This document shows, in pieces, positions 9,473-51,780 of a DNA stretch of 64,000 nt. The stretch lies in the NCBI GenBank assembly GCA_011033025.1, contig WFMF01000029.1, positions 310,001-374,000 of the forward strand, read 5' to 3'. Position 1 is the stretch's first letter. The number at the start of each line of letters is the position of its first letter. The notes beneath the pieces are model-generated. The model saw nothing but the letters and a program-made list of their open reading frames with translations, was not told the origin of the DNA and made no database searches. Both the position numbers and the translations under genes were made by a program. Source of the DNA: Beroe forskalii. Taxonomy: Eukaryota > Ctenophora > Nuda > Beroida > Beroidae.

Positions 9473-12400
9473 ATGAACCCAGCCATCATATTCCTGATTC
9501 TACTGACTGATATTATCATAGCGCAAGAGACGAGCAATCTAGTCGACTTGCGATTCTTTAAGTGAGTTTTAGGAACTATTTTAGGGGAATTTTATAATCT
9601 TACTATATATAATTCTTCATCATATATATATTTATCTATGTAATTATGTTTGTCTGGCGTCTGTCCGGTCTGACACCACTCCGTAATGTATCAGAAGACG
9701 TGAAATTAGATCCTTGACACTGGTTAACTAGACTATATGGATTGTAAAGCACTGTCTCATCAGCAAATTCACAGTATGTTATGAATCTTGAATGTTTTGA
9801 TATGAGGTCTCAGGTACTGCTTTCTAGCAGGACCCAGTCTGTCCGGTCTGACATCACTCGCAACCCAATCGAGCACCCGACCGGAGGTCGCGGGTTTTGC
9901 TAGTTTATATAATTGGAACTTTTCAATTTTAACGAAAATCAAAACTTATTTGAAAATTTCAAATAGGTTTTGATTTTCGTTCATTACCAGTTACCACTTG
10001 CAGCCAAATCCTTGGCTCCATGACCTGTTCAAGGAACCATTGGATAATGAAAATAGCATTCTTGCAGTACAGTACTGTAATTTCAAGACAGATGAAGGTC
10101 GAAAGTTCTTTAAAATACTGAACTTTATACTCTCAGGCAGGAAAGTTGTTCAGTGTACCTTGGAGACGATGAAAGCGGCAGGTATGATCCTCGGACCCAC
10201 CTCCTCTACGCGAATAATACCATCAGTGACGTTGTCAACTGCAAACTACACCTTAGACAGGTAGGCTTTTTAGTGAATTACTGAAACTGCAAACTACGCA
10301 TTAGACAGTTAATGGAAGCCTTTGTGAATCTTTTTCCAATTCAAAAAAGGTAATTTTTATGGTTTTCCCCGAAATTTGAAAAATTTCCTTTTTAATTTCA
10401 GCTTCTCTATCGTCCACTTTTTCGACCAAATTCGTTGAATCTGCTCAATCAATGTTTACCCCCAACGTTCTCGCTACTTCACTGATTTGCTGTCAACCGC
10501 TGTCAACATAAAGAGTGGTTATTAAAAATCAATGACTCATATTGTTGAAAGAAGTCTGTCTGATTGTCAATGTCAAGTGTCCATGTTGCCTTTATGTATT
10601 TTTAATGACTGTAACTTTGAGTTCAATTTCAACAAGGCGGTAAGGCACGAAACTTCTATAACATCACCAATTATATCAAACCTATGAACTTGATGAATTT
10701 TAAAAAGGTCCTGTCATTCTGACATACTTCGTGTCTCGGACAGTGCAGAATTTGTATTATGTACAAATAATGGATAATAATTAAATGATAGGTAAGTAAA
10801 TAATACTAATATCAAATTATCAATGTTACGCGAATTTTTCGCAGTAACTTGGTGATGCAAGATTAGAGTCATCACTTTCCTTCCTGACACCACTTTACTC
10901 CTTGACTTCTCTTTACTTGAACTTGACACCAGTGTACTCCCTGACACCACTGTACTCCCTGACACCACTCTACTCCCTGACACAACTCTACTCCCTGACA
11001 CCACTCTACTTCCTTACACCACTTTACTCCCTGACAGCACTGTACTCCCTGACACCACTAAACTCCCTGACACCACTTTACACCCTGACACCACTGTTCT
11101 CCCTCACACCACTCTACCTCTCTACTCCCTGACACCACTGTACTCCCTGACACCACTCTACTCCCTGACACCACTTTACACCCTGACACCACTGACACCA
11201 CTCTACTCCCTGACACCACTCTACTCCCTGACACCACTCTACTCCCTGACACCACTCTACTCCTGACACCACTCTACTCCCTGACACCACTCTACTCCCT
11301 GACACCACTCTACTCCCTGACACCACTCTTCTCCCTGACACCACTCTACTCCCTGACACCACAGACACCACTCTACTCCCTGACACCACTAATCACTATA
11401 CTCCCTGACATCACTCTACTCCCTGACACAACTGTACTCCCTGACACCACTCTACTCCCTGACACCACTCTACTCCCTGACACCACTCTACTCCCTGACA
11501 CCACTGCTCCCTGACACCACTGTACTCCCTGACACCACTCTACTCCCTGACACCACTGTACTCCCTGACACCACTTTACTCCCTGACACCACTCTACTCC
11601 CTGACACCACTCTACTCCCTGACACCACTGTACTCCCTGACACCACTCTACTCCCTGACACCACTGTACTCCCTGACACCACTGTACTTCCTGACACCAC
11701 TCTACTCCCTGACACCACTCTACTCCCTGACACCACTCTACTCCCTGACACCACTCTACTCCCTGACACCACTCTACTCCCTGACACCACTGTACTCCCT
11801 GACACCACTGTACTCCCTGACACCACTGTCTTCCCTGACACCATCCCACTCCCTGACACCACCTTACTCCCTGACACCACTTTACTGCCTGACACCACTC
11901 TACTCCCTGACACCACTCTACTTCCTGACACCACTTTACTCCCTGACACCACTGTACTCCCTGACACCACTCTACTCCCTGACACCACTCTACTCCCTGA
12001 CACCATTCTACTCCCTGACACCATTCTACTCCCTGACACCATTTTACTCCCTGACACCATTCTACTCCCTGACACCACTCTACTCCCTGACACCACTGTA
12101 CTCCTTGCTTCATTTACACACTTTACACTTTGACATCATTCTGATCCTTGACACCGCTCTATTCCTTGACACCACGATTGAATTCAGGCTTGCTGCTGAG
12201 CTACACTTCGAATAAATTCAAGCTTTTGGGCCCCAGAGAATTTTAAGATTTTTAGATTTATATTTCTTAATATTTTCTCATCCCATATTCATGTTCAACC
12301 ACGGTTTAATTACATCATTTACCATTTAGAAAATTCCACATCATTTTGTCACTTCCTTTACAAAATACACAAGCTCACATAATTTTACCTGAAGTAAGGC

Positions 12401-15400
12401 AAGCGTGCTTGTTAGCCATTTTAAGATGTAAAATATTCCAAATTCTGAAATTTGATAAAATACGTTATATTAAATTTGATAATTCCCTGAGAAAATATCC
12501 CAGCCAAGAAACTCCCCTAATCGAATTTGAATTGAAACGCAATATGTCAGATAAAGAAGCATGGTAATTTTAGATAATTATCATTAAGTCCGTTAAAAGT
12601 CTCTGAAAATGTCTCTGAATTCTGGATGTTTCCACAAAATGATGTATATAAGTTTTATATGCCTGTCTCTCAAGATAAGAACCTTTAAATTTTAGGGCTC
12701 GGGTTCAGACCTAACTGTGCTTTACACGAATAATAAGTGCCACCATAAAATCTAACCACGATGAAGCTCAATATAATGCAACAAATCGTGTTTACCTTCA
12801 TCCCACATCCCAATCCCTCCTCTGTTATAAAATTGTTAACATCCTAACCCCCTCTCAGAAGGTTAAACTGCGGTTTCTGGCCTCGCTACCCCAGCTGAAA
12901 ACTACCCTGCTGTGTGAGGGTGTCTCCTTGCACTCCGTCATTGTCCGGGACGACAGTCAGACTGACGACTGTGAGTTCAGATTTATTCTACTTATTTCTC
13001 TTCAGATTATTTTGGAAATTTCTAATCTGAGATTTTTCCTGGATTTTCTTTGAACTTTTTTCCCTTTTCCTGGACTTATAGTATCCGGTATTATTATAAT
13101 TTTTTGCCTGATACAATTCTCAAGAATCCACATAATATATCGAGACTGAAGAGAGTTGTTGTGTCAAAACACTCTCTGGGTTTGTGATTTGTTTGTTTCG
13201 GTAAAAGCATAAGAAAGTGTTACATTGAGTACGGCCTGATATTATATCGCACAAAGAGACAGTGATAGAAAAAGCCATAGAAAAAAGAGAAATATTGGCG
13301 ATTGATAGTTGATGTCATTATCATAGTACAATGCAGGAAGTTGATGACGTTGATAACCGCCTACTTTTGGTAGCAGGGTCGGCGTGTGACGTGCCTAATT
13401 ATTTCGTACACGGCAGAGTTAGTTCATGAAATTGAAAAAATAAATTCATATTGTAACAGATATATAAACAAAATTCAAAACTTCCTCAAGGCTTCGACTG
13501 ATTACAAGGTAATCTCAACTACCTATATTGTAGGTATTTGCGAAAGAAGTTTTTGTTCATGTATTCTTTATCATGAATCAACAAAAACCAGATTCATTGA
13601 TTTCAGATAACCATGGCGACAACGACCTCTGTAAAGTAGAAAGCATCTCCTACTCTACCTACCTCTACCCTGATGTCTTTCTAGCATCCCCCTCAGCCCT
13701 ATATAGATTCGACTCTTCTGCTGGTAAGTTAACTTTTGTTGAATGATTAAGTTTGCATGTCAATTTTGTCTGGAAAACATTTTCCATCGCCATACTTATC
13801 GTACGACGTACAAACACAAAGAATTAGATCCCTGAGGAGTTAGTTCACATGGCGCATCAAACATCAGAAAATTAAAAATACCTCAGAAATTATTAGTACA
13901 AAATGTATATTTCTTCCGAAACTTTGATCTCTATTACCCCACTAAATTTTCCGATTCTTCTGCTGTCTTGACGAGATACGAGACACCAGAGACGTTTTCC
14001 AAAGTTCACCTTGTATTCAGACACGGACACTTCGTTTACATTATTTACACGGTAAGTCAATTGGAAGCTTAAAACTACATCAATTCTTCATTATTCACAC
14101 GGTAAGTCAATTGGAAGCTTAAAACTATATGATTTCCAAAATCAGACAATCTGATTTTATCGACCTAAATTATTATCAAGCCAATGTTATTCATTTGTTC
14201 GTTTGTATCCTTCACAGACCTTAAAACCATCTTTTTCTTCCAATTTTCACTCTAAAACCGGTCATGATGACGGAGAAAGTCAGTCATAATATTAAGCTGG
14301 GGTACGGTACCTTGAGGGCTCCTCCAGCATTTTAAATCTTCTTGGAATTTGCTCTTCGATTAGTTTTTGTGCCTCCTACAGCTGCAGCAAATGATTCATT
14401 GAATCCCATGATAAATTTGATACCTTATTACAGGAAATATCGCCTTCAGAAAAATGAGCCTACATGTCATTAAGCTACATGAAATTAAGCCCTTTTTTGA
14501 GGCCCTAGGGCTTAATTACATGTAAGCCTAATTTAATGTATTCCTAAATACATGCAGCCAAATAATCATTTTGGGGATAGAAAGTCTATGAAATTATGAA
14601 ATAGAAATTCCAGCCTTGTATTCAAATAATTAAGACTTTGTATTTTACGAATTAAGAATTTTAGGCTTGATCTTCTCATTTGAAAATTTGATAGGTTGAA
14701 TTAATTTCCAATTCCCACTGAAAACAATTAATTTCAATCGGTGAATTTTCAGAGACGATAATTACTATGACAAAATAACCTATAGAATAAGTCATCAAAG
14801 CATCATGAGAGTCTTATCACTTCATCAAGTCTATCAAATTGTTGATAGAATATATTTCCACAAAACTCAGAATACTTATTGGTTATCAGCCTTGGAAACA
14901 TTGCATGCTATGTAAACTCAGCTATGAAGATTTGAAGAAATAAGCAATGGAGGGTCAAGGAGTAAGCTCAACCTTCCAGAATGTGTCTCTTGCATTATTG
15001 ATAGTCTTGGCAATACCAGTGGCTTTCCATCCGGCATCAATTCAATGCAATACTGTATCAATTAATACTGAATGAAAAAAATCGATGTTTTCGAACTTAT
15101 TTGCTTGAAAAAATAGTCCTCATGAAATTAAGAATACATGTCATTAAGGTGCATGAAATTAAGCCCTTTTTGAGACCTTAGGGCTTAATTATATGTAAAC
15201 TTAATTTCCTGTAATAAGGTAATTTCTGAAGAAGAGACGATTTTATTTTCACAATTTTACCACTTCGAGCTGTGATAATAACGTCACTACTACCCACTGA
15301 CCACTGGCAATGACGGCGCGCACCCCACCCCCAAATATTTAGCTCAGATTTTGCAGCATTCCAGATAACTGCAGGTTTTGGCGGTAACGACGAAACTACA

Positions 15401-18400
15401 CTTTCGTCTTTGTAATGCACATGTTTTAAGAGCTCGTATATAATATACTATTGTGTATTTAGTTGATATAATGAGCCCTAGGAGTACTGTGTTAAACAGT
15501 GTGGGTCTTGATAGATAGGTGCTCTTTGTTCAATAAAATAATAAAGGGCGCTGGTATGTTGTTATGGGTCAAGTGTGCGAGGAATCAGCAATAATATGTA
15601 CTGAGCTTCATCAACAGGTCACCTTGGCGATGACACCTCCCTCAGCCACCTAGACTCCTAGAATTGTTCTGTACCGAGCAATCGAGCACCCTGATCTGTG
15701 ATAACAATTGATTACATACGATTTGCATTATGCAGTGACTGAACTCGTTTAGTCATGGTAGCACCTAGATCTGTGGTTAATAACTACCTAGATCTGTGAT
15801 TAATAACTACCTTATTACACACAAGATAGTGGCTGCTCAATGATCATTCAATTAGTCATGGTACTCTGGCGTTGTATGTATATTGTGTACACCAATGCCA
15901 CCTGATTCAGGGTCCATCACTTAGGTTAGTTTAACCATGATCAGTGCCTTAATGAGCAGTAATGATCTTAAAATGTCGTGTTCTCAAGAACTCTAGTAGC
16001 TACAACCCCTTGAGCTTCCCATGGGTACAATCAAATGAGATTTCAATCAACTTATACTAACGCAGAAAGAGAATAAGGTGTTTTGAAAATAATAACATAA
16101 TGACAGCAGAGATTTTTCAAATATTTTATCTTTCTCAAAAACAATAATACAATATAAAAGCTTTGGTCCAGCAAAACAAAAAAGTAGTTCAATAGATGCT
16201 AAAATGGATAGGTACAACACCTTTAACTGGTTAACAAATAGCAATACTAATTTTTAAACTTATCAAGCATCAGCTTTTCGCCTCAGTTCTTATGTGTCTA
16301 GGTCATTTTGCCTAACTGGCCATTTGGCCTAACGCCTAAAACTCACATAATTTTGAATTCTCTCTCCCCTGACCCTAATTGTGGTGTTCGGCCAAATTTC
16401 CAGTTAGACCAAAGGACCGAAAACCATCACCAAGTCCATTTTGACTCCAGAGCCAGGGAACCAAATTGCGACATCGTCAATTTGATGAAATCTTCTTCAC
16501 GAAATTCCTCCAAAGCACCCACAGTTTCTTAGTCATCAGCTTGTACATCTCACTGTAAAACAGAGGGTTTAGCAGACTGTTCAGAGGAATGAATATCAGT
16601 GCAAACAATTCAAATACCAACGGAGGGGGTATCTTCTTAAAAAACTCAAAGATTATGATGGTCAGGATGAATGGTATCCAGCACAGCAACTCAGATCCAA
16701 TCATAAGCGCGATTTTCAGGGTCATCGCTGAAGTTTGGGATTTATCAGCATTATTTGCGTTCCCTTGATTTTCGGAAACGGCAGCCAAAGCTTGCGTTGA
16801 TTTTCTTTGCTTGGATAAGATTCCAATGTAAGTTGTCAGGACAGAAGCCAACAGAAATGTCAAGGCACTGCAATAAGAAATTTTGTAGAAAGTATAGGAC
16901 CCCTGTGTTTTAAAGACATTATGAACACATAGGCCTGTGTTTCCGTAATATCCGATTTCTTCAATATCAAAAAGCTCTGGCTTCGATGTCAAATTTCTCA
17001 TATTTTCAATTATTTCATAGATATCTGAGGTTGTGTGGTTGAACATTCTTTCATTCATCATAAACAGTCGAGTTCTGTTTATGGGACTTTCGTTAAAAAA
17101 TGGATTTTGGTTCAAATATTTGAAAAAAATCTCAGTACCAAACAAATTTTTTACATATGATATCGGTAATAGTGGAAGGAAGGAATTGAACCAGTTTATG
17201 AGATTTATCATTGCTACCATCACAAAAACATCTCTCTTTTTCGTATGAGAGCCAATCTTCGTGCAGTTTCTCCATCGGGTATGACTGATAAGCGCAATAG
17301 TTAGGATGGAACCATGGGCTGAAGAACTGAAGATAGCCCCAAAGAGAGAGCAAACCCAACTTGATCTCCAGGCACTTTCTATCATGCAATACTTCCCTTT
17401 CAATCGGATTATCAGGCCCACCAGCACTATGCCAAACAGATAAACTCCCATCATCAAGTCATGCAGGAAGAGGTTTATCAGGAATATTCTCTCTGTCGCC
17501 TTAGCATTTGTTGAACATTCCATCTTCCAGGTTTTGAAGATTTGGCGACTGTTCATCACTATGATCAACATGGCCAGCAGGGCAGTGAATCCTACCACTA
17601 TCTTGGATTGAATGAGGAACTCAGTCGAAGATAAATATCCCATATCACAAGTCCCACACTCATCAGCCCCATTTTGGCAATCCTTCGCATGATCACATAC
17701 CTTCTCCGGTTCAATCCATTCTGTTGAATTATCACTGCAGTAGAATCGTCCTGGACAGCCCATCTCATCCAACCCAGACCGACAGTCCACAACACCATCA
17801 CATAACTGTGTCAGAGCTATCTCCGCATCCTTTGAGGACTTTAAACCTGGATCGCAAATAAAATCATAATCATGAAGGTATCCCAACATTATTTGGTCAC
17901 AGAAGTGGATCCAGTTACCCTTTTTAAAGCCGGGGACTCTAGAACAGTTGGATTTGCAGAACTTTGCTGCTGCGAAGGGGTGATCAAAGAAGATTTGCAG
18001 AATCTCCTTATTCTGAAATGCAATGTACATACATCTGTACAGTGGATTCGAGTCAATATTAAGATATGTTTTGCATTTTCTTCGCATCCCTTTTAAAAAT
18101 GAATTACTCACTACATGAGCAATTTCATTTCCTTTTATTGCACAGAAACTCTTTTCAGTGATACAAATATCCTCCAATTCTTCCACACCTTGGATGCCAG
18201 AACAGAAACATTCATCAGATGCGTCCATGCAATCTTTAATATCATCACACACTTTATTCAAGGTTACGCATCCAGACCCATCAACACAATAGAACAGATC
18301 AGTTGAATAATTTGAGCAGTGGCACTCATCTGTAAGGCATTCAGAGGTTCCATCGCATAAAAGGTCCAGATTTTCGAGTTTACACCACCATTCAGCAATC

Positions 18401-21400
18401 TGCAACTTTTTGGGGATCACCTTTCCGTGAGTAGGGTATCGAAGCTTATCAAAATTAAACCTGCAAAATTGGGGGTCAGTAGCGGGTCACCAGGGGTTTA
18501 TAGGGGTCAGTAGGAGTTCGCCAGGGGGGTCAGTAACGGGTCAGTAGGGGGTATTGGTTTACCTAAATACTTTGAAATTGACGCGATCGAAATTGAACCT
18601 GCAGTAAGATGGATCCTTTTCATCTATGGTTTTGTTGGTAGCTCTCTTAAGAAGTGCATTGGTCGTGTAGTCGGTTATCGTTCGCTCGAAACATGACTGT
18701 AAGCCGTACCAGTCACGGACCACATGATCTGTTGATCCCTGTTCAATGATGATCCTTTCCGGTGATGCCAGATGTAGGATTAATGTGATAACGTCTATCA
18801 TTTCCTTTCCTATTACTACCTAGAATAGAGAGGGTTGGTGGGTTAAAGTGTAGAAAATACCAAGGGAAGAGTTTAGTTCAGAAACGAAAATGAAATGATA
18901 CAGCAAAGCGATTTATGAGTTGAGTTTGACTCTAGAAAACATTTCTACCTTTGATGTTGTTGAATATTGAACCTCAACGGTCTCCCGAAGGAGAGCTGCT
19001 TTTTTATGGGCGGGTAAAGAATATTGAAATTTACCGAGAGAAGAAATTGAAGTCAGAAACAAAAATGAATTGTGCTTGACTCTAGAAAACATGACGAACT
19101 TTGATAGAATCTAACTCTTCCGACATACGAGTCATGCCAGAGGTGCAAATTCTACATAAAGCTCCATATTATATCCCATCGTGGTGCTACTTTTATGTTC
19201 TGAATATATTCATTAAATATATGGTCCGTTTGCCTTTCTAAGTCACAGGAAGCCTAACCCATTCAATACCGGCATGCATTGGTGGACTATTGTTGTATGC
19301 CGTCAACTTTCATGAATATAAATTTTGAAATATTTTCAATTTCGATACTCTATGGAGCAATTTTACATTTGTGGGGGCAGGAGCGAGATTTTCCAGAATT
19401 ACGAAATTTATCTAAAAAAAAGAAAATATTGATTAAATATAATAAAATGAAAGCAGATTTGTGGAAATGAAGTTCGAAAAATCAAAAAATACAAACGACT
19501 TGAAAAGTTTAAATAAAGTGTGCAATTTTTTGTTACTGGGGGTAGGGGTGCAACTCAACGAACTTTCGAAATAGTTAGATAGTTCGAGATTCCAGAACTC
19601 TGCTGATCTGCCTCACTCAGATTTACTACAAAAGGAAAATGTGGGGAAAAGTAATTATAGTGAGTAATTATGATAATTACATCAGAGACGTTTTAAATTA
19701 TTTTGTATCTATCAATATAACATTACATGCGCATCATTTTATTGTCCTTTCCGTGTTACGAATGGAACCCAAAAATTATATTGATAGAGAGGTGTCTTCA
19801 GGATTCAAAACACCCTTTAAGACGTAGGTTAGCGTTTGAAGCTTTGTCTGTTTTTTTTTCTTCGGGTCAGCTCTGTGTTTGATAAAAACAACAAAAATAT
19901 TCGCTCGTAGTGACCAACTGAAAGCGCTTGAAACTACAAAGAATATCATACCCTCGAGTAAATACTTGAATATCTCTCACAGTTTGTGAACCCTAGGAGA
20001 CATTGAAAAGAATGTTCATGGGGGTAATGAAAAACGAAAATTTTACTAAGTTTTCTAATATATTACGCTGATAAGAATATATTAGATAGAAAAACTCGAA
20101 GGATAGTTTTGCTTGAAATATATAAAGCAGGCGAGTTCGCATCTTTTTTGTTATTTATATTCTTGAATAATGAATATCTCATGCTGCATTGTGCACAAAA
20201 AGTTCATCACGTGGCACCCCCGGTTTTGCGACTGATTTAAGGATGAATATTTAACTTAACATGGTTTCCGGTCGATTTTCATATAATATCTTCTGAAGTG
20301 GAAAGAAAAGAAGTAAGGCCACACTTGCAGTGCTTTTCTAACTTCTTTCATAGAGGCCAAAGTGTGCTGCTTTTACTGTGGATAGTGGAGCGGCAATGAC
20401 TTACTTACTTCCCTCTTCACTCTGATCCTTGGATTATAAAATCGATATTCAGTGTTTGCTTCATGGTTGTCATATTCCAAAACAGATAAAACTTTGGATT
20501 CTTTATCAAATATATTTCATATAACTCGTAAATTATAGTTTATTCATCAAATCTGTTTCAGAATGTGGACGGTAAAGCCACTATCGGTAGGATGTGTGGT
20601 AACGATAACGGATTCCACAACGCATTCCGAACCTACCGTCAAGGACCTCTCTCCTGCACCACGCAAAACGTAATTATCTTCCAACCTTTGATTAATGGGG
20701 GGGGGGGTTGGTAAGGGGCGATGACCTCTCTCCGTTACCACGCAAAACGTAAACTAAAACAGTCTTCGAATATTAATTACAACTTTAAATTACTTAATTA
20801 GTATCATTTATTAAAAGAGCGAAGTTTCTCCATTTTTGCTGCCTTTGCTCATCAATTGCACTCGCAGTTTTGGTCAAACACTCGCATCTTGCGCTACATG
20901 CGGGAAGCGGGAACTGCGCAATTTTGCATAAAAACACTTTTTATCTCATGAGATAAATTTATCTCACTTTCCTCAGACTGAGCACCGTGTTGTGTTGTCA
21001 GCCCACTATGAGAGTGGTAACCTGGTACTGTTAACATCCCGACCTCCAATTACACTATCAGGTAGGTAATGGTGTTTGGGTACAGAATATACATCGTGAT
21101 ATGTCATTAAAATGTGCAATGTACCATGCGAAATACATTTTAATCATGCGATATACATTGATTTTCATTCGTGAAGGACCCTTAAAAATAATAGAGATAT
21201 TCAGAATAAAGCTATCACCAAATGCCGTCTTCCTAAGCGTACATGAATACGAAATCAAAATTTCCCTCAAATCGTTTCCTGGACATTTTGTCCTTGTTTT
21301 ACATCTTTGTCTCCCTCGCAGGACGAGTGCTATGCTCCATCCCCATCGATCACATCGACCTCATGTTAGACACTGGAGACTTCTTCTTCTTCGATGAACA

Positions 21401-24400
21401 TGTAAGGTTGAAGTTTAAACGTTAAATATATTTTGTAAACACCGTTTCAACTTGTTCTTGATTTAAAGTGCCTCTGATAGCCCTGTTTTTGGGGAAAAAT
21501 ATTTTTTTAAATTCCTGTTTTTAAAACCCCTTCTCACAACATAATTTTCCTCGAAATATAACGCCGAACATGCAACAATGCCTGAAATCCGTATGTTCCC
21601 AGGGTAACAGACAAGTTGCTAAGGGTTACAACCAAACCTGCAAAGGGGAACTCAGTGACCTCTCCCAACTCAAGGAGACGATACACGGCACTCAGATCAT
21701 TCTCAAGACCCTGACTTCTTATCTCACTTTTACTAAATACCAGGATACTTGGTATCTGGGAGCAGGTTAGGGGGTTTTGTCAATTGATTAACTAATTGAT
21801 TGTTTTTTGTTAGATTTTTCTTTTGGTGCTGTTTTTTCAGCGGTAGGAGCGAAGAAAATTTGCTAAATCATCGTGAGAGAGCGTAATATTTTCATGATGA
21901 GGTATTCTCTAGAGGCATTCGTGTTTATTCAGGGTTTAGAACACTATAGCATATTATTTTTAGACCATAAATTGAATATTTTTGTCGACTGAAAATATTT
22001 ATAACTGATGCTCCTACCGGTGATAAGCTAAACTGTGATTGACTTACCCCCGATGAAATGTTTGTCATCGAGTCAGGTTTACTATGCAGTATGCAAGGAC
22101 TGAGATTTACTACCGTGTTTTACTATTTCAGTCAGAACTCACATCATAATGTCCACAATCTACATCGATGGAAAAATAATGTTTTAAAACCTAAAATCAG
22201 GGTTTTTGATTGGTCAAAGGCTTCTGACTGGATGTTATTTTGAAATTCTAACAAGATTTTAGTCACATGAATGTTGAAGGTAGTCTTTCTTTAGATCAGT
22301 TCCAATAGACTGATAGAGCATTGCATTACCGCCGTCTAATACAGAAAAAGCATCCAAAAGCGAAATTCATTCGGTGCTACTTTGATCATTGGAGACTCGC
22401 AATGTTTAGTGTTTCTGATCCTTTGCCATCCTTTGTAATGATGAACTGTCAATCATCATACGACTTGTCATTGTGACGTCATTACGATCAATCAACTGTC
22501 ATTTACGAGCTACACCCTATGAAATGCATCCTTGCATATATCAGTTGTATTAGTATTCGATCGAGAAAGCCGATATGTCGACTACCATGGTTAGCGTGGT
22601 ACGTTTACCGCTTTTTTGAGCGAGGATTTCCCCGAGACTCGAACCATGGATGTCATGAATGACAGGCAGGAATCAAACGCAGCTCAGACACCAAATTAAT
22701 GATCACGTTTTCTTGCACTCAGCCTCTCACTTGTACATCCTATCATCAATATACGATGACTCATCCTCAGCAAGTGATTGCAGCTCTTCTGTGGTTTTAC
22801 GACGATAAAAATAAAACGCTCACATTTTCACGGATTCTGACTGACCTTGAATATTCTTAATTTTACACTGGTTTCATGTACAATAAATGTTGTCATGTTT
22901 GCGTCTTGATCTACCAAGTCTTATGGGCAGTTCAAAAGAAATTTGCGTATGAGATAACGTCATTCTCATAGCTCAAAGTTGTAAGTTGATGGAGTTGACT
23001 TGAAATGTCTCTAGCGTGGGTCTTACGTCAACATGAATATTAGACTTTAGTAATAATCTCAATTTTGATAGTCTAGTTACCAAGGAGTCAAAGTAGACAA
23101 ATTAAATGAGTTGATAGACAGGTTTCATTCGTAGTGTCTAACCAAGCACTCGTATATTAATTCATTTACATCCAACATTATGTCATACAAAGCGTGCGAC
23201 TAATTGTGATAAATTTGACATTTATTACTTACATATATAAATTTGACAAAGCCATAAATTCACATCATAAAGTTAAATGGTACCTAATGGGTTCATTCGA
23301 AGTTACTGAATGTATTCCACGAATTGAACTACAGAGACTATTCTAAATGAATGCCTCGCGCTCCTTGATCTTTCAGTGGCTTGAAAATTCATGAGCTATG
23401 AAAGATCGTGTGAAGAATGACATGTTCGCATAATTATGCTATTTTTCCGGTTTTTATTGAAATGACGCTCACCTTTCATGGTTACCAGCAAGAGCGTTCA
23501 TCAGTCACTAGAAAAAATCTCCCTCTATCAATCCTCCTATCTTCATTATTCCAAAAATTTCCAATTTTTCCTCTAATTCCATCTCCGTTAACCATCTCCG
23601 ATCCCATCTAACCCCATAATCTGAAATATCATGTAAATGCATCTAAAATGCTCCATTTCTAATTCTATCCCCAAATCCCCCCCCTTACCCCCTCTCCCCT
23701 CTCAGACGGAGTTTTGGATCTGCGCCAAGACTTTCCTCTCCTCCTCCGATCCTCCTCCTCCTTCCCCTCCAATAACTACCTCTACCAAAGTATAGCCACA
23801 GACATCGCAGAACCAGGTTAGATAGATGTGTATTTCATGTCACGACATCTTATCTTATCAAGCGTTAGGGTCAAGGTTGGGGTCAGGACAGGAAGATGAA
23901 GTGACCTGAGATCAAATGTCTTTTTTCCCACTTTTTGCTAAAGTTTTGACTCGACCCAACATATTCGACGATTATTGATTTACATATCATTCTCATTCAC
24001 TGCTGAATTTCTGGAATCATTTAAATTCTACTGCTGAATTGCTGTTATCATTTTAACTCTACCGCCAGGTCAGATAGATGTGCAGGATGGTGAGGTGACG
24101 GTGATAGGAAAGGGTGAGGTGACCTTCCTACCTCTCTACATCTGCTCACACCTACAGGTAAACTTTTACATTTACATTTTATCTAGAGGTAAACTTTTTA
24201 TTAGACATTTTTATTTAGAATTTCGTACCTTTTTCAAATTCGTACTTCCAAATTATTTTTTTAAAACTACTTTTGAAATATTTTTCGGGCATTTCCTTCT
24301 CGATGTACAATTTGTCAGCGTTTGTAGTACTTTGCACGCACAGAACTTCAAACTCAGCTCAGAGTTAGAACACTCAATTGTCCACTTTTCTGAGCACATA

Positions 24401-27400
24401 TTGTTGTCAAAATACTTAAAGTTACGAAGAAGCTGGAGAAGTTAAGGTGTTGGGTGGGAGATGTGTGTGATATTTACTTCAGGTCACAGCAGTCAATATA
24501 TACATTATTTCTAGTTTCTACCCAATTAATCAATTAGTAAGACTGATGACAGCTTGTAGTTTGTGTTGAGATTTTACAGTAATTTATAGTGGGTTGTAGA
24601 TGGTTTTCAGATGGCTGAAGAGAGTACATTGGAAGCCTTTTCTGACAGGTGGTGAAACCGTCAAAAACTCACGCCCCACCCTTTCTCTAGCCTCCTTTCC
24701 CAATCCCCTGCAACTCAAAAAACACTTCAGAAGGGAAATTTTGGGTAGATAAGCCCAAACATGCCATCTTTCATTTACAATCAAAAGTTGGATCAGAATT
24801 TTTGAAAATGTAACGAAATTTTACCCAAACCCCTCTTTCAGGAGCCTAGCACCTGCTACTCCGTTATCGGGTGTTCCTGGTCGCTGGAAAACTGGGAGTG
24901 TGTTCTCTCAGAACGGAAACTGAGTTTCAGTGCTGAGCATCCTGAGGGAGTTAAACACGTGATCAGGAAGGGCTGTCAGATTGAGACGACTACGTTTACT
25001 GAGTTCAATACTACCCGCTCTAACGAAGGTTAGAGGAGATTTTAATGAGTCTCTAAAGTCTAACGAGATGGAGGATTTCGAAAGTATTTTCGATAAGCGT
25101 TTTGAGTTTTCCTTACTTCATTGCTCTGCGCTACTTCAATCTCTTGACGCTATGGAAGAGATTTGCCTTGAAATTTAACCACCATATTCTCCTCAGACGT
25201 GCAATGTGAGACTCCCTCCCTGTCTCGTAACGTTGAGATAATCTCCCTTAACAACACCTGTATGGGAGCATTGCAGTTAGCGTGCAGGAGAGGTAGCTTC
25301 CTGAAGTCCGGACATTTGGATAGATACTGTCTACCGAGTGGGGAGTGGTCGGGGGTGGAGCCCGTCTGTCAGGGTGAGTTGACACCACTAATAGGTGACA
25401 CCACTTACCGCTGACACCACTCATCGTTGACACCCATTATCATTGACAGCATTCACCGCTGGCACCACTTATCTTTGACATCACTTATCGCTGATACCAC
25501 TTATCGCTGACATCACTTATCGTTGACACCACTCATCGTTGACATCACTTATCGTTGACATCACTTATCGTTGACACCACTCATCGTTGACACCACTTAT
25601 CGTTAATTGTTGACATCACTTATCGTTGCCACCACTTATCTTTAAATCTTTTGCAGCACTTTTCTTTGATACCACTTATCTTTGGCAGCATTTATCGTTG
25701 ACACCACTTATCTTTGACACCACGTATCTTTGACACCACTTATCGCTGACACCGCTTATCTTCGACACCAATTATCTTTGACACCACTTATCGTTGACAC
25801 CATTCATTGCTGACACCACTCATCGTTGACACCACTTATCTTTTACACCTCTTATCTTTGACACCACTTACCGCTGACACCACTTATCGCTGACACCACT
25901 TATCGTTGACATAACTTATCGTTGACACCACTTATCGTTGACATCACTTATCGTTGACACTACTTATCATTGACAGCATTCATCGCTGACACCACTTATC
26001 TTTGATACCACTTATCGCTGACACCACTTATCATTGACACCACTTATCGCTGACACCACTTATCGCTGACACCGCTTACCTTTGACACCACTTATCGCTG
26101 ACACCACTTACCTTTGACACCACTAATCGTTGACATCACTTATCGTTGACACCACTTATTGTTGACACCACTTATCGTTGACACCACTTCACCGCAGATC
26201 AGCAGTGTGATGCGCTTGACGCCGGATCATCTATCATCATCTCCAGCCCATCTCGACAAGTTGGATCCCTGGTTACATTCCAATGCTCTGACTCCTGTGA
26301 GACTCCCGTCAATAAGGACCCTATGCTGTGCACTGATACCGGGAAGTGGAACTCTTCCATTCCTTCATGCTCCCGTAAGTTTGTAGTATTTACGCAGATT
26401 TTAATTGAATTCCTTACTTTTTGCGTAGGTTCCAAATAAGTTTTTATTTTCAGTTTTGAGCGATTTGTCATTGTTTGGAGCATGAAAGATGAATTGATGA
26501 CATCAAAACGCCTTTTATAACTGTGCGTGTTGTGCCTCAAGATGGATGAAAATATCGATATTTCAACAGCAAATTAGCAAAAGTAACATTTTTGCACCGG
26601 GAATTTTTCCGCTCTCTGCATTTCTCTAAGTGCCGAAGATAATCCAAACGTATGGTTTCCTTCAGGGAGTAAATCGTACGGATATAAATGTATGTAGTAG
26701 TAAAATTCTTTGTCTTGATGAGTCGCTTTAAATTGGAATGTAATGATGTACGAGGCCTGAAATATGTTACAAATGTGGCGTAATTCATTTGACTTCGGAA
26801 GTCAACAAGTTTCTCGTTATAAAAAACTGGAGACTTATGTCGAACTGAAATCTTATAAGTGAAGCACACCCAGCCAACCAAATGAGAATACTTGACAATT
26901 ACAGTGGCAAATACCGATTACAATGCGTAGCAAATACCACTTAAAATGCGAAACAATTGATGCCAATTCAGCCAATGGTAACAACTTTTATAAGCCATTA
27001 CAAGCGATCATGTGACTCTATGTTAGTTTTTCGATTGTCAGCAGTAAGTGTAGGCAATGGGCGTTTCGTCAGATATTTCCTAAGTCAATTTTATCTAATT
27101 TATCATCATTTATGGTGAAAATTGTGTAACCAATCACGATTTGAAAGCATTGTTTGATTTCAATCATGATTGAGGCCCGAGAACAAAATTTAAAGTTGTT
27201 TGGGGATAACCAAAGATTTCCTGACGTAGCGAAAAGGTATGTCCCGGTTTTGAAACCAATTCAGACTCTTTTCCTCCACAACTTGCACAGCATTATTGCA
27301 ATTTTTGCCGTGGCAAATGAAATAAATGGATATTGTCGTTACATACCGGCTATTATTTACCCATCCTGTGGGGTGAATGGGTCAAAAAATGAAAAGAAAC

Positions 27401-30400
27401 GTTACTGAGGATCGCAAACATACTCTTGCAAATATCAATGAAAATTTTGCGATAATTGTGGCAATAGAACCGAAAATATCTGCCTTCAGAAGAATATTCT
27501 AGTTTTTCCTAGTCTCAGATTTCAGCTTGCTTATAGACGAAAACTTGTGCCACTCGCGGAGCAGTGGAGGAAAAGAGTCTGAATTGGTTTCAAAACCGGG
27601 ACATACCTTTTCGCTACGTCAGGAAATCTTTGGTTATCCCCAAACAACTTTAAATTTTGTTCTCGGGCCTCAATCATGATTGAAATCAAACAATGCTTTC
27701 AAATCGTGATTGGTTACACAATTTTCACCATAAATGATGATAAATTAGATAAAATTGACTTAGGAAATATCTGACGAAACGCCCATTGCCTACACTTACT
27801 GCTGACAATCGAAAAACTAACATAGAGTCACATGATCGCTTGTAATGGCTTATAAAAGTTGTTACTGCGAAACGTCTGTGAAACGCGCGCGCACTAACGC
27901 GCCAATAATTCTGACACCCTACTGTACTACTGCGTGATGACCCCAATGCTTCATTGCCTCAGGTGCCATTATATCCCGATCATCTAATTACCTCCACCCA
28001 CCCCCCCCAATTGCCCCCCCCCAATGCCCCCTATATTACTTCCCATTTGCCTAGGTAAGCGGTGTGACACGCTACCCTCCCTCCCACCTAACACTGAACT
28101 CCTCTACACTACCCTTGAGTGTGGAGGTGTCATGGTCTCAAAGTGTACTCCTGACACGGCTCTAGTGTCAGGAGACCTGCTCAGAGAGTGTCTACCAGAT
28201 GGCAGCTGGAGTGGAGAGCAGCCCAAGTGCGAAGGTGGGGCAGAGAAATTTAAATGACTAAAAAAGTAAATCGATCATTTCTATGGAAAAATCTTCCATA
28301 GACACTTTTTTCATCTTTGCTGGTGATTCGATTAAAGATTAATGGCGATTCGGATTCACCTGTCAGTGGACACTGTCATATTTCGAATAATCTAAATTTC
28401 TGTCACCCTTTTCCTAACCTCCTCCCCTCCAGTAACGCACTGTGGTCCCCTACTGAGCCCCCCTCACGGCTCCCTTACCTCCCTGTCAACCAGTGTGGGA
28501 GACGTGGTGACAGTCACCTGCAACACCTGTCATACTGTATCAGGTAAATCCCAAACACATGTCACACGGTCTCAGGTAAGATAAAGATCCTTGAAATTCT
28601 TGCAATACAGTCTCAGGTAAATCCGTGATTTTAGATCTTAGGAACACCTGTCACACTGTATCAGGTAAATCCCAAACACATGTCATACTGACTCAGGTAA
28701 GATAACGATCCTTGAAATACTTGTAATTCTGCCTCCGGTAAAAACGTGAATTGAGATTTAAGGAACACCTGTTATACTGTCTCAGGCAAATATTATAATT
28801 TTCTTTGGAGAGAGATTAAACATGTTATGGGGCCATGGAACCATTCTTCAATCAAACGTGTTTGGTTTTGTTCTTGAAATCTTGAGGTTACAATATTGGT
28901 TCCTCTGTCTGAGAAATTAAGAAATATATGATCCCATTTTCTTATTTCAAAGCGTTACTGCCACTCCAGTAAGCAATGTAAAATGACATCTAACGTCTAT
29001 CCGTCCTAGACACGCCGTCTCACACTGTCGCCATGGCAACGGAATGTCTGCCGTCTGGGGCGTGGTCAGCTCAGCCCACGTGTCAACTTGTAACTTGTCC
29101 TGTCTTGGAACCTAGCCAAGGTGAGTCACAGGGAATACTACTGTTTGTATTTTTATCAGGATGCATCAGGAACTTTATAAGCCTCATTTGAAATTTTATG
29201 GCCTGTGCCCCTGATTTTTAAGCTCATGTGTTCAGTTCGGTTTATTTTAAGCCCGTAATAAATAAAATCAACAACAATCAACCTGGACACTGTTTTCTGG
29301 CGTTACCATAGCTGCTCAGTGCTCTAGGCAGCCAGAGAACCTAAGTTTAATTGCTCACGGGTTCATAAAATAGTAAATGGCGATATGTAACGAAATTATT
29401 GAAAAACTCATGTTAGAAAACACGGTATACATAAATGCATACAATTAATGGCCCTCACATAACAATTATATGAAAAAACTATAAGATGGGTTACAGTAGT
29501 GTCACGAGTTCGAGAAATGATAATGAAAATCATTCTGTAATTTCCGAGTCGCGTGCACCATGTTATACTGTTCTCACTTCTCACGTACGTGTGTACAAAT
29601 GGTGGTCGTCTGGAAAGGTCGGAAAGTTTTCTCAGAACTCACGACATCCATTTTACAAACTTCTGTCCAATTTCTCCTCACCCCTCCCCACAGGAACTGT
29701 AATAAAACGGATGAACAACACGTGTATCGGGATCGCTGAGTTCGAGTGTCGTACCGGACATACCCTGGAGGCTGGGGATTTAGTGAGACACTGTCAGACT
29801 GATGGGACGTGGAGCGGCGAACTACCCACTTGCGAGGTGAGTCAAGACACGAAAATCTTATTCTTCATTTCGATTTATTGTGATTTAGGTTGGAGTAAAG
29901 CCCTTAGAGGTACGCCCCTGGCGTTTATCATCATCAACAATTACTTTTAATTCTGCATTTCGTTACTGTACATACATGAAAGTTAAGAATTAGAATGGAA
30001 GATGGAATTGTACTGTGTCTTTTTGAACTTAATCAGTCTTCATCTCAACGAATTTGGTGATTCTGCCGATTAAATTGATTCAATTCACTTCATAACCCCC
30101 ACTTCATTCCCCAGGTAGTCCGCTGTGAGCCCCTCCCTCTCGACCCTACTCTGGTTGTAATCTTAGAACAAGGAGCTCTATTCGGGGAACGTCTGGTGAT
30201 GGAATGTGCAGCAGGGACCAACTACACCTCAGGGTCCCTGGAGTTACATTGCCATAGTGATGGCACGTGGCACGGTGGCAGTATCCCCGTGTGTACCAGG
30301 TGGGTTTTATTTCAATTCATTGTTTTAAGGGTAACTTTTATTTCATCTAACAAAATTGATAAAATCGTATGTTTCCCTTGTATTGGGTAAGATAACAGGC

Positions 30401-30963
30401 AAAAAAGGTACTGGTATTCTTCTGTATTCTTCTGTCAAATTAAATCTCTGATTTTGAATCACCTAATCTCCTGCAGGATGGAGATGGAGTTCGTTACAGC
30501 AGTACCCCTCCCCATCACCAGTGATGAGGGAGGTAACAGGGGCCTGGTGGCCCTCGCTGTGGTAGGGTGGCTTCTCTTCGTGGCTTCCCTGATATTCATT
30601 ATGATGGTGGCGTTACTGGCTAAGAGAGGGTTGTTGGGAAGTGAGGTTATGCCACCCTCCTTCGGACAAAAAAGTAGGTTTTATAGGCTATTATTACAGA
30701 CTAGCGTAATGTTATTTATTAGCAGAATTTTTTCGACTGAGAAAACATAACTTTCGCCTAAAAACTGTCGATCATATTTCCACTTTCTTGCCCTGATTTT
30801 GCAGAATATTTTCTAGAAATCACCCACTTTTCCAGGCCCTGACTACAGTAAGTACACCAACAAGTTTGAGCGTCAAGTAACTCAAACCACGAACGCTGGT
30901 ACCCTTCAGAGATCAAGGGCAGGGACTGCAACCCTTTCAGAGGCAGATAGATACGTGTTCTGA
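9473..30963 (+). CDS. Sema-PSI-six-CCP single-pass membrane protein (20 exons)
   Basis: Exons: 9473-9561, 10137-10260, 12859-12970, 13607-13723, 13897-14051, 20977-21061, 21322-21401, 21603-21765, 23706-23816, 24069-24157, 24842-25028, 25197-25373, 26198-26374, 28055-28234, 28433-28543, 29010-29120, 29694-29836, 30115-30299, 30477-30673, 30836-30963. All have GT/AG borders and matching phases, and sum to 907 codons. Residues 1-17 form a signal peptide (MNPAIIFLILLTDIIIA). Residues about 22-370 resemble a Sema propeller of plexin/MET type: YDPRTHLLYAN, then TTLLCEG, then SGRVLCSIPIDHI. A Cys cluster (YICSHLQ...TCYSVIGCSW...WEC, about 372-395) fits a PSI module. Six CCP domains follow (about 438-798), with the C...C...C...W...C pattern and WSG-type endings. 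One helix (about 821-847, GLVALAVVGWLLFVASLIF) and a tail of about 59 residues complete it. The likely role is extracellular recognition at the cell surface; the ligand is unknown. The Sema call is by pattern and is less sure than the CCP call. Introns carry minisatellites, mobile elements and an antisense receptor gene. Confidence 0.75.
10262..10310 (+). repeat. Duplicated exon end in intron 2
   Basis: The last 23 bases of exon 2 (from ACTGCAAACTACACC through TTAGACAG) reappear 48 bp downstream as ACTGCAAACTACGCA through TTAGACAG. The second copy is followed by TT instead of the donor GT, so only the first can act as a splice donor. Confidence 0.7.
10866..12175 (+). repeat. 18-bp minisatellite in intron 2 of the Sema/CCP gene
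   Basis: About 65 head-to-tail copies of CTGACACCACTCTACTCC, with variants in the last eight bases (GTACTCC, TTTACTCC, TTCTCC). It is the largest of several arrays in the window that share the core TGACACCACT. The long minus-strand open frames here read as GVEWCQ or GSRVVS repeats because 18 is a multiple of three; they are not genes. Confidence 0.95.
14041..14120 (+). repeat. 50-bp tandem duplication across the exon 5 splice donor
   Basis: TTATTTACACGGTAAGTCAA at 14,041 is repeated at 14,091 as TTATTCACACGGTAAGTCAA, and the match continues through TTGGAAGCTTAAAACTA. The duplication therefore supplies a second intact donor (CG|GTAAGT) 50 bp downstream. Use of the second donor would shift frame and meet a TAA. 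Confidence 0.85.
14421..15221. mobile_element. MITE-like element with 18-bp terminal inverted repeats
   Basis: TACCTTATTACAGGAAAT at the left end is matched exactly by its inverse ATTTCCTGTAATAAGGTA at the right end. With TA taken as target-site duplication, the element is about 797 bp, as in Tc1/mariner-type insertions. Subterminal segments near 14,465-14,540 and 15,135-15,200 (CATGAAATTAAGCCC, then AGGGCTTAATTA) repeat each other. It has no coding capacity and sits in intron 5 of the Sema/CCP gene. Confidence 0.75.
15222..16476. other. Intronic spacer 3' of the nested receptor
   Basis: Part of intron 5 of the Sema/CCP gene and downstream of the minus-strand receptor stop codon. No exon, repeat family or RNA gene is recognisable beyond a short ACCTAGATCTGTG duplication near 15,763 and 15,787. 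Confidence 0.4.
16477..18801 (-). CDS. LDLa-domain seven-helix receptor (GPCR), two exons
   Basis: Exon 1 is 18801-18563 and exon 2 is 18460-16477, giving 740 residues. The start codon is followed by a short hydrophobic stretch (MIDVITLILHLAS), a plausible weak signal peptide. The ectodomain (to about residue 360) has four LDLa-type modules with acidic calcium-cage motifs: CDGTSECLTDEC, CDDIKDCMDASDEC, CDGVVDCRSGLDEMGC and CDHAKDCQNGADEC. Seven helices follow from about residue 366. HTRW stands where DRY is usual, WIPFILTIII marks helix 6 and NPLFY marks the NPxxY motif of helix 7. The second extracellular loop is unusually long and rich in N-glycosylation sites. No leucine-rich repeats are seen, unlike relaxin receptors; LDLa receptors such as molluscan GRL101 are the nearest known type I can name. 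The gene lies entirely, in antisense, within intron 5 of the Sema/CCP gene. Ligand and G-protein coupling cannot be inferred. Confidence 0.88.
18461..18602 (-). repeat. Duplicated AG|GT segment bounding the receptor intron
   Basis: On the minus strand TGCAGGTTCAATTTCGAT (exon 1, around 18,602-18,586) is repeated 138 bp later as TGCAGGTTTAATTTTGAT at the exon 2 acceptor (around 18,464-18,448). Both contain AG|GT. Splicing from the upstream AG|GT or from TTTAG|GTAAAC at 18,563/18,562 gives the same phase; the difference is exactly 12 codons. The intervening sequence also contains repeated GGGGTCAGTAG. Confidence 0.75.
18802..20976. other. Intronic spacer 5' of the nested receptor
   Basis: Rest of intron 5 of the Sema/CCP gene, which probably includes the receptor's promoter. 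A phrase CCACGCAAAACGTAA occurs twice (about 20,658 and 20,738), each after ACCTCTCTCC, around a G10 run. No exons recognised. Confidence 0.4.
25378..26197 (+). repeat. 16-bp minisatellite filling intron 12 of the Sema/CCP gene
   Basis: About 50 copies of TTGACACCACTTATCG and close variants (CTGACACCACTTATCG, TTGACATCACTTATCG). The array starts five bases after the exon 12 donor and runs to the exon 13 acceptor, so it makes up almost the whole intron. It shares the TGACACCACT core with the arrays in intron 2 and in two other genes. Confidence 0.92.
26978..27865. mobile_element. Foldback element with about 302-bp inverted arms
   Basis: Left arm 26,978-27,279 and right arm 27,564-27,865 are inverse copies of equal length, beginning GTAACAACTTTTATAAGCC on the outside and meeting at CCTCCAC / GTGGAGG on the inside. 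The arms looked near-perfect wherever compared. A 284-bp non-coding loop separates them. It lies in intron 13 of the Sema/CCP gene. Transcripts through it would contain a hairpin of about 300 bp. Confidence 0.85.
28520..28800 (+). repeat. 122-bp tandem repeat of the exon 15 end and its splice donor
   Basis: The end of exon 15 and its donor (AACACCTGTCATACTGTATCAG then GTAAATCCC) is repeated at about 28,643 and, more diverged, at about 28,765. Each unit also holds a second donor-like CTCAGGTAAGATAA. Several decoy 5' splice sites therefore follow the real one; the third main copy reads CAGGCAAAT and has lost its GT. Confidence 0.8.
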
Positions 30964-51200: not shown

Positions 51201-51780
51201 TCAAATGGAGTAGATAGAGCCGGGCCCACAGAGTCTCCTGCAGCAAGCATAATCAAATGGAGTAGATACTAGATAGAGCCGGGCACACAGAGTCTCCTGC
51301 AGCAAGCATAATTAAATGGAGTAGACAGAGCCGGGCCCACAGAGTCTCCTGCAGCAAGCATAATTAAATGGAGTAGATAGAGCCGGGCCCACAGAGTCTC
51401 CTGCAGCAAGCATAATTAAATGGAGTAGACAGAGCCGGGCCCACAGAGTCAACTGCAGCAAGCATAATCAAATGGGGTAGATAGAGCCAGGCCCACAGAG
51501 TCAACTACAGCAAGCATAATCAAATGGAGTAGATAGAGCCGGGCACACAGAGTCAACTACAGCAAGCATAATCAAATGGAGTAGATAGAGCCGGGCACAC
51601 AGAGTCTCCTGCAGCAAGCATAATCAAATGGAGTAAATAGAGCCGGGCTCACAGAGTCTCCTGCAGCAAGCATAATCAAATGGGGTAGATAGAGCCGGGC
51701 CAACAGAGTCTCCTGCAGCAAGCATATAATAAAATGGAGTAGATATAGCCGGGCCCACAGAGTCACATCTCACAAGCAAA
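48240..51780 (-). repeat. Satellite array of about 52-bp units
   Basis: Roughly 65-70 units of a sequence containing AGTAGATAGAGCCGGGC, ACAGAGTCTCCTGCAGC and AAGCATAATCAAATGG. Unit length varies by indels; a longer variant carries CCCACAGGCCAGAGTCACC. Longer blocks repeat (for example, similar runs at about 48,590-48,890 and 49,010-49,220), indicating higher-order duplication. Minus-strand frames reading LIMLAAGDSVCPALSTPFDY are translations of the repeat, not genes. Repeat units touch each other with no unique spacers, so this is not a CRISPR array. Confidence 0.95.

Follow-up and report, generated by a model that had tools for sequence, protein, structure and literature searches.

A candidate transmembrane semaphorin on a stalk of six CCP modules in the ctenophore Beroe forskalii

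Can a semaphorin-type head and an array of complement-type CCP modules belong to a single membrane protein? Semaphorins have a common head and a varying stalk, and complement regulators are membrane proteins with CCP arrays. The question is raised by a gene on the plus strand, at positions 9,473–30,963 of a stretch of 64,000 nucleotides from the ctenophore Beroe forskalii, hereafter the window (assembly GCA_011033025.1, contig WFMF01000029.1, positions 310,001–374,000). We hold with moderate confidence that this is one gene, encoding a type I membrane protein with a divergent Sema propeller, a reduced PSI, six CCPs, one transmembrane (TM) helix, and a short non-catalytic tail, and resembling a transmembrane semaphorin. 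The best reading of the sequence would be a fast-diverged transmembrane semaphorin carried on a CCP stalk.

Rebuilt from candidate splice sites, the gene comprises 22 exons and encodes 972 residues. The exon chain begins with the ATG at 9,473, all introns are GT–AG, and the frame runs without an internal stop to the stop codon ending at 30,963. The encoded architecture consists of a signal peptide, the Sema-like head, a PSI-like cluster, six CCP modules, one TM helix, and a 59-residue tail. A single joined frame was already recognized in the original prediction, whose counts of 20 exons and 906 residues are close and are corrected here. The agreeing exon phases that it cited do hold along the chain, but they constitute weak evidence, because the splice sites were picked to agree in phase. 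The codon score is positive in 21 of the 22 exons and −3.4 in exon 6, the 5′ half of which, with its weak acceptor, is the least certain piece of the model. Another forward frame outscores the chosen one in exons 2, 3, 4, 5, 8, and 11, and the scores of the CCP exons are not independent, as these exons were in the training set. An intron of 6.5 kb separates exons 1–6 from exons 7–22. The transcript would follow the exons as predicted below, all of which lie on the plus strand.

9,473–9,561, plus: exon 1, start codon and signal peptide (hydrophobic run, by eye), with a good donor (TAA/gtgagt)
9,991–10,097 and 10,154–10,260, plus: exons 2–3, N-terminal head, based on open frame and splice sites; no Sema profile signal
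12,859–12,970 and 13,607–13,723, plus: exons 4–5, N-terminal head, based on open frame and splice sites; no Sema profile signal
13,897–14,051, plus: exon 6, with a Sema FVYF-type strand (HFVYIIYT) at its 3′ end; residue 218, where the hhalign alignment starts, lies inside it
20,562–20,669, plus: exon 7, Sema R-x-C ... L-x-C motif, with a phase-0 intron upstream
20,977–21,061 and 21,322–21,401, plus: exons 8–9, Sema, with the motif VLCSIPIDHID, within the hhalign alignment; candidate start 21,243 upstream of exon 9
21,603–21,765, 23,706–23,816, and 24,069–24,157, plus: exons 10–12, end of the Sema-like head, within the hhalign alignment
24,842–25,028, plus: exon 13, PSI-like cysteine cluster (12.6 bits with the Sema+PSI profile; 13.6 bits with Pfam PSI)
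25,197–25,373, plus: exon 14, CCP1 (Pfam Sushi; five cysteines)
26,198–26,374, plus: exon 15, CCP2 (Pfam Sushi and module alignment)
28,055–28,234, plus: exon 16, CCP3 (Pfam Sushi and module alignment)
28,433–28,543 and 29,010–29,120, plus: exons 17–18, CCP4 and the beginning of CCP5 (Pfam Sushi and module alignment)
29,694–29,836, plus: exon 19, bulk of CCP5 (Pfam Sushi and module alignment)
30,115–30,299, plus: exon 20, CCP6 (Pfam Sushi and module alignment)
30,477–30,673, plus: exon 21, juxtamembrane stretch, TM helix, and beginning of the tail (hydropathy up to 2.83)
30,836–30,963, plus: exon 22, remaining cytoplasmic tail with the C-terminal RYVF, and stop codon

The head is likely, although not certain, to be a Sema domain. 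A Sema+PSI profile built from 13 sequences (plexins, MET, semaphorins, and, from the same genome, its plexin and a semaphorin) scores the head at 23.2 bits in HMMER (E = 1.5e-9 for a single comparison), against no more than 6.6 for any of 2,000 shuffles; the match consists of two colinear pieces at model positions 225–286 and 475–531. With the same profile, hhalign gives a probability of 93.2 and an E-value of 2.9e-7, with a score of 60.6 where 200 shuffles reach at most 28.0, and aligns residues 218–468 with template positions 219–510. Since the template starts at 219 and the query at 218, the unaligned N-terminus is long enough for the missing blades, and the propeller may be complete. Within a background set of 1,565 sequences, comprising 1,563 open reading frames (ORFs) from the window and the fetched loci and two test sequences (loci L008–L020, duplicates of the window, were excluded), the head has an E-value of 2.4e-6, the ORF containing exon 7 scores 14.5 bits (E = 9.8e-4), and the top window ORF outside the gene reaches only 0.33. 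An earlier profile of seven sequences had given 8.7 bits in HMMER (best of 1,000 shuffles, 8.0) and an E-value of 0.0013 in hhalign (probability 18.8; score 34.8; best of 100 shuffles, 28.4). The global mode of hhalign was discarded for the head, as it returned a meaningless 5-column alignment. The outcome that the original prediction had named as fatal to it, the lack of any Sema score, did not materialize with the 13-sequence profile. Statistical support for Sema/PSI similarity is confined to residues 218–468, and the head occupies about half of the protein rather than the N-terminal third first proposed.

Several results weigh against this assignment. Pfam Sema PF01403, the search proposed in the original prediction, is not listed for the head at E ≤ 10, a listing limited by the HMMER filters, which discard most matches above about 0.1; Pfam detected no Sema in the whole protein or in three sub-fragments. 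Residues 18–217 show no significant similarity in the Sema profile searches. The head scores 2.3 bits with a semaphorin-only profile, which at least five of 2,000 shuffles exceed, and 3.8 bits with a plexin/MET-only profile, which one of 2,000 shuffles exceeds; moreover, its glocal score varies with the gap costs. Because the single-subfamily profiles stay at shuffle level and the glocal test depends on gap costs, the assignment is graded as likely only. A phmmer search of the head against the PDB yields a single match at E ≤ 10 (6fkk, E = 0.42, spanning the Sema/PSI junction), and the best BLASTP alignment with the same genome's plexin (E = 0.17) is out of register. The N-terminal part of Sema is poorly matched elsewhere too: in a scan of six Sema-bearing contigs with the 13-sequence profile, covering 10–20 kb each, from which some N-terminal exons may fall outside, the only matches before model position 200 are weak ones at C174 and C242.

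The cluster in exon 13 sits directly after the Sema-like part, and several standard PSI cysteines are absent on inspection. Residues 416–500 score 12.6 bits with the Sema+PSI profile (best of 2,000 shuffles, 7.8), while Pfam PSI (PF01437) matches only when the 78-residue region is submitted alone, and then with 13.6 bits (E = 0.087), under the cut-off of 23.1. Position and profile signal thus speak for the PSI-like cluster proposed originally, whereas the sub-threshold Pfam score and the fewer cysteines speak against it. An AlphaFold2 model of the PSI exon alone (mean pLDDT, the confidence score of the program, 59) was uninformative in Foldseek, with 793 matches at E ≤ 10 and none at E ≤ 0.001.

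Intron position provides a further line of evidence. In the Sema-CCP gene, the FVYF-type strand is separated from the R-x-C-x-N/D-D motif by a phase-0 intron. Four of the five other Sema loci examined in the genome (C891, C780, C174, and C493) likewise have a phase-0 acceptor shortly ahead of their R-x-C motif. Since C174 nearly duplicates C493, the four count as about three independent cases; C242, nearly identical to C780, was not included. A candidate phase-0 donor was found at C891, C780, and C174, and the upstream motif at C493 was not located. At C869, both motifs lie in one ORF without the phase-0 acceptor. The genome holds at least one plexin-type gene (Sema, PSI, IPT), and in the plexin at C691 a single ORF runs through the R-x-C intron point. 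The recurring phase-0 position argues for joining exons 6 and 7 over the 6.5-kb intron, and the shared acceptor leans toward an affinity with semaphorins over plexins. Among these loci, two near-identical pairs lie on different contigs (L022 at C780 with L025 at C242, and L021 at C174 with L032 at C493), perhaps as alleles or recent duplicates, and C780 carries several short tandem copies of the beginning of the R-x-C exon.

The C-terminal half is recognized readily. Pfam Sushi (PF00084) matches six stretches with an E-value of 1.2e-26, in accordance with the six CCP modules read originally, and the module alignment agrees with the CCP pattern of four core cysteines and a tryptophan; an HRM match slightly under the Pfam cut-off falls within the same region. 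CCP1, CCP3, and CCP5 are mutually closest (39–41% identity; scores 100–118) and have an extra cysteine 18–19 residues past the first core cysteine. In CCP2 and CCP4, the extra cysteine comes 3–4 residues past the second core cysteine, and CCP6 has none. This pattern suggests that the array grew by module duplication, and the extra cysteines possibly form disulfides between neighboring CCPs. Relatives of these modules elsewhere in the genome are distant (the best of nine matches has 28% identity and an E-value of 1.2e-14), and the genome as a whole contains at least 135 CCP (Sushi) matches. A second copy of the head was not found in the genome at E ≤ 10, all 12 matches lying on the window's own contig. 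By hydropathy, a single hydrophobic helix at approximately residues 888–913 is followed by the 59-residue tail, exactly as first proposed. The C-terminal RYVF fits a class II PDZ-ligand pattern.

How does this architecture compare with known systems? At E ≤ 1, Pfam finds only Sushi in the whole protein, plus HRM below its cut-off; the plexin IPT repeats and GAP domain, whose lack the original prediction had pointed out, are absent from these matches, as is a kinase domain. Plexins and MET/RON are also membrane proteins in which a PSI comes after Sema, an order that the Sema-like head and PSI-like cluster would share, but they differ in their IPT, GAP, and kinase domains. Because IPT and GAP domains were not found, and because the tail is just 59 residues long and lacks a GAP match, the protein is not a plexin. 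One helix, a 59-residue tail, and no GAP match are what is expected of semaphorins, which are secreted, glycosylphosphatidylinositol-anchored, or single-pass and have no plexin GAP. The six modules, with their four core cysteines and tryptophan, equally place the protein among CCP-array membrane proteins. Complement regulators share with it the tandem CCPs, the one TM helix, and the short tail; it differs from them in its Sema-like head and in the five cysteines, instead of four, of its CCP1–CCP5.

Within ctenophores, the main text of a survey of non-bilaterian Sema proteins (PMC6374515) describes Sema-IG from Mnemiopsis and places it in the ctenophore lineage. This protein has the same plan of Sema, PSI-type cluster, stalk, TM helix, and short tail, but carries two Ig domains in place of six CCPs; in the Beroe protein, in addition, the head is very divergent and the PSI reduced. 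The semaphorin locus C174 has a PSI match (E = 2.7e-6); the ORF that follows has an Ig match above a Pfam cut-off, and further ORFs show an I-set match 0.1 bit below its cut-off and a hydrophobic, TM-like stretch. By its predicted domain order, taken from the positions of unspliced ORFs, C174 is a Sema-IG-like gene, and it shares with the Sema-CCP gene the phase-0 splice site ahead of the R-x-C motif. The Sema-IG plan of this locus points to a ctenophore, as do the matches of a glutamate receptor encoded in the genome, which lead with two ctenophore proteins, PDB chain ML032222a (E = 1.1e-68) and 4zdm (E = 2.9e-56), ahead of a fly receptor (E = 6.7e-33). ML032222a reaches no more than 48% identity in the genome, so the sequence by itself indicates that the animal is probably not Mnemiopsis but another ctenophore. 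A common intron phase after PSI was considered and rejected, as that junction is in phase 1 in the Sema-CCP gene and probably in phase 0 at C174. Sema-FN and the class 5 semaphorins of non-bilaterians, as presented in the main text of the survey, exhibit a similar modular plan with a variable stalk, but use FN3 or TSP1 modules of their own without CCP (PMC6374515).

The survey, which relied on keywords, BLASTP, and TBLASTN, reports in its main text Sema proteins with additional FN3, TSP1, or Ig domains or with no additional domain; the words sushi and CCP are not found there, and in that text a Sema with a CCP stalk is an absent class (PMC6374515). Its keyword and BLAST approach could miss so divergent a head. 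No description of the Sema and CCP combination was found among the papers listed in searches of the open-licence PMC literature, consistent with the initial impression that this is not a described family. If true, this architecture would extend the semaphorins by a class with a CCP stalk, probably in ctenophores, a lineage whose nervous and immune recognition systems are under debate. Surveys by keyword, BLAST, or Pfam can overlook a head of this kind; since Pfam is blind to it, Sema proteins may be undercounted in genomes of this sort.

The rival accounts of the gene structure turn on three points. If the head were another β-propeller or an unrelated fold that resembles Sema by chance, the missing Pfam Sema match, the first 200 residues without signal, the parameter-dependent glocal score, and the near-shuffle scores of the single-subfamily profiles would all be explained; however, the combined-profile scores lie far beyond the shuffles, the motifs are colinear, and the splice position and phase recur, which leaves this account a very slight chance. 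The junction between PSI and CCP1, predicted from phase and proximity, is a further point against a single gene product. Two genes may have been wrongly joined here, one encoding a secreted divergent Sema-PSI protein and the other a downstream CCP receptor, or one gene may also give a soluble form by intron retention. Readthrough past exon 13 meets an immediate in-frame stop at the intron opening, so that a soluble Sema-PSI form through retention of this intron is possible. In addition, the seven Pfam-Sema contigs do not overlap with those that have Sushi matches, a comparison in which 150 of 343 Sushi candidates were scored and the Sema search was blind to the window gene and hence may have passed over other divergent ones. 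Nevertheless, the intron between exons 13 and 14 measures only 168 bp and contains neither AATAAA nor ATTAAA, the CCP1 frame has no ATG between the last upstream stop and CCP1, and a signal-peptide exon was not recognized in the gap by eye. We regard the two-gene or soluble-form account as unlikely, though it retains appreciable weight. The remaining point against the full-length gene concerns its start, for which the original prediction had named a site near 21,243 as a sign of separate genes. An in-frame ATG does exist at 21,243, with compatible phases and a hydrophobic lead of 27 residues that runs on into exon 9 and, by eye, resembles a signal peptide, and among the leads of 21 internal-exon acceptors compared, only this one has such a look. 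A gene or second promoter starting here, with exon 9 first, would yield a smaller CCP receptor, headed by a signal peptide and retaining half of the Sema-PSI region as a remnant. Such a shorter form is possible, but its head keeps 12.6 of the 23.2 bits and its hhalign probability falls from 93 to 17.5%. Just upstream, exons 6–7 hold the FVYF and R-x-C motifs in the order expected of Sema, and the hydrophobic look is partly due, on inspection, to the pyrimidine-rich acceptor tract. The long form is preferred because the short head loses score and these motifs stand in Sema order immediately upstream, and we consider a start at 21,243 very improbable.

For the full-length, transmembrane-semaphorin-like protein, the architecture favors a corresponding role with the CCP rod as a stalk. 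The propeller would face neighboring cells and bind a plexin-type receptor, the rod would set the reach and may supply a second contact, and the tail may be anchored to scaffold proteins via RYVF. As a catalytic tail and IPT domains were not found, a role as a membrane-borne ligand or in adhesion is proposed. The fit appears better for a transmembrane semaphorin whose stalk was exchanged than for the re-equipped guidance-type receptor first suggested, although the semaphorin-only profile by itself left the head within the range of the shuffles. The Sema-like and CCP architecture behind that suggestion is supported, whereas plexins are not the best comparison, given the missing IPT and GAP domains and the phase-0 acceptor shared with semaphorin-type genes. 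Alternatively, the CCP array could be the working part of an adhesion, complement-control-like, or allorecognition receptor, with the Sema head as a mere platform. Pfam recognizes the six CCPs while the head has diverged beyond it, the extra cysteines alternate along the array, and a plexin and a Sema-domain gene of a sponge are reported to increase 6 h after lipopolysaccharide (PMC8242945). Against this, a ligand or signaling motif was not identified, and CCPs are common extracellular modules in this genome, so that we judge this account improbable. A bolder proposal, in which the gene would represent a separate ctenophore Sema-CCP class whose head escapes standard domain searches by its divergence and that fuses guidance-type recognition to complement-type modules for self/non-self or immune cell contacts, is likewise doubtful.

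The introns of the gene contain several further elements. Nested in the 6.5-kb intron, on the minus strand, is an intronless ORF of 669 residues (16,477–18,486) with LDL-receptor class A repeats (Pfam LDLa, E = 7.8e-8) and a rhodopsin-type G protein-coupled receptor domain (Pfam 7tm_1, E = 5.7e-11). A 121-bp tandem duplication of 2.2 copies (28,522–28,791) begins within exon 17, whose splice donor it repeats. Between CCP2 and CCP3, the intron harbors a perfect inverted repeat of 302 nt (26,978–27,279 and 27,564–27,865; spacer 284 nt), which would be a very recent inverted duplication, a foldback element, or an assembly artefact. Three minisatellites (10,883–12,104, 25,378–26,189, and 57,269–58,273), with units of 18, 16, and 16 bp, have the core TGACACCACT in common; two of them lie inside introns of the Sema-CCP gene, and the one at 57,269–58,273 carries the core in reverse orientation. 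Elsewhere in the window, a 52-bp satellite of 67 copies occupies 48,257–51,764, in a stretch with a strong skew of A over T (0.349).

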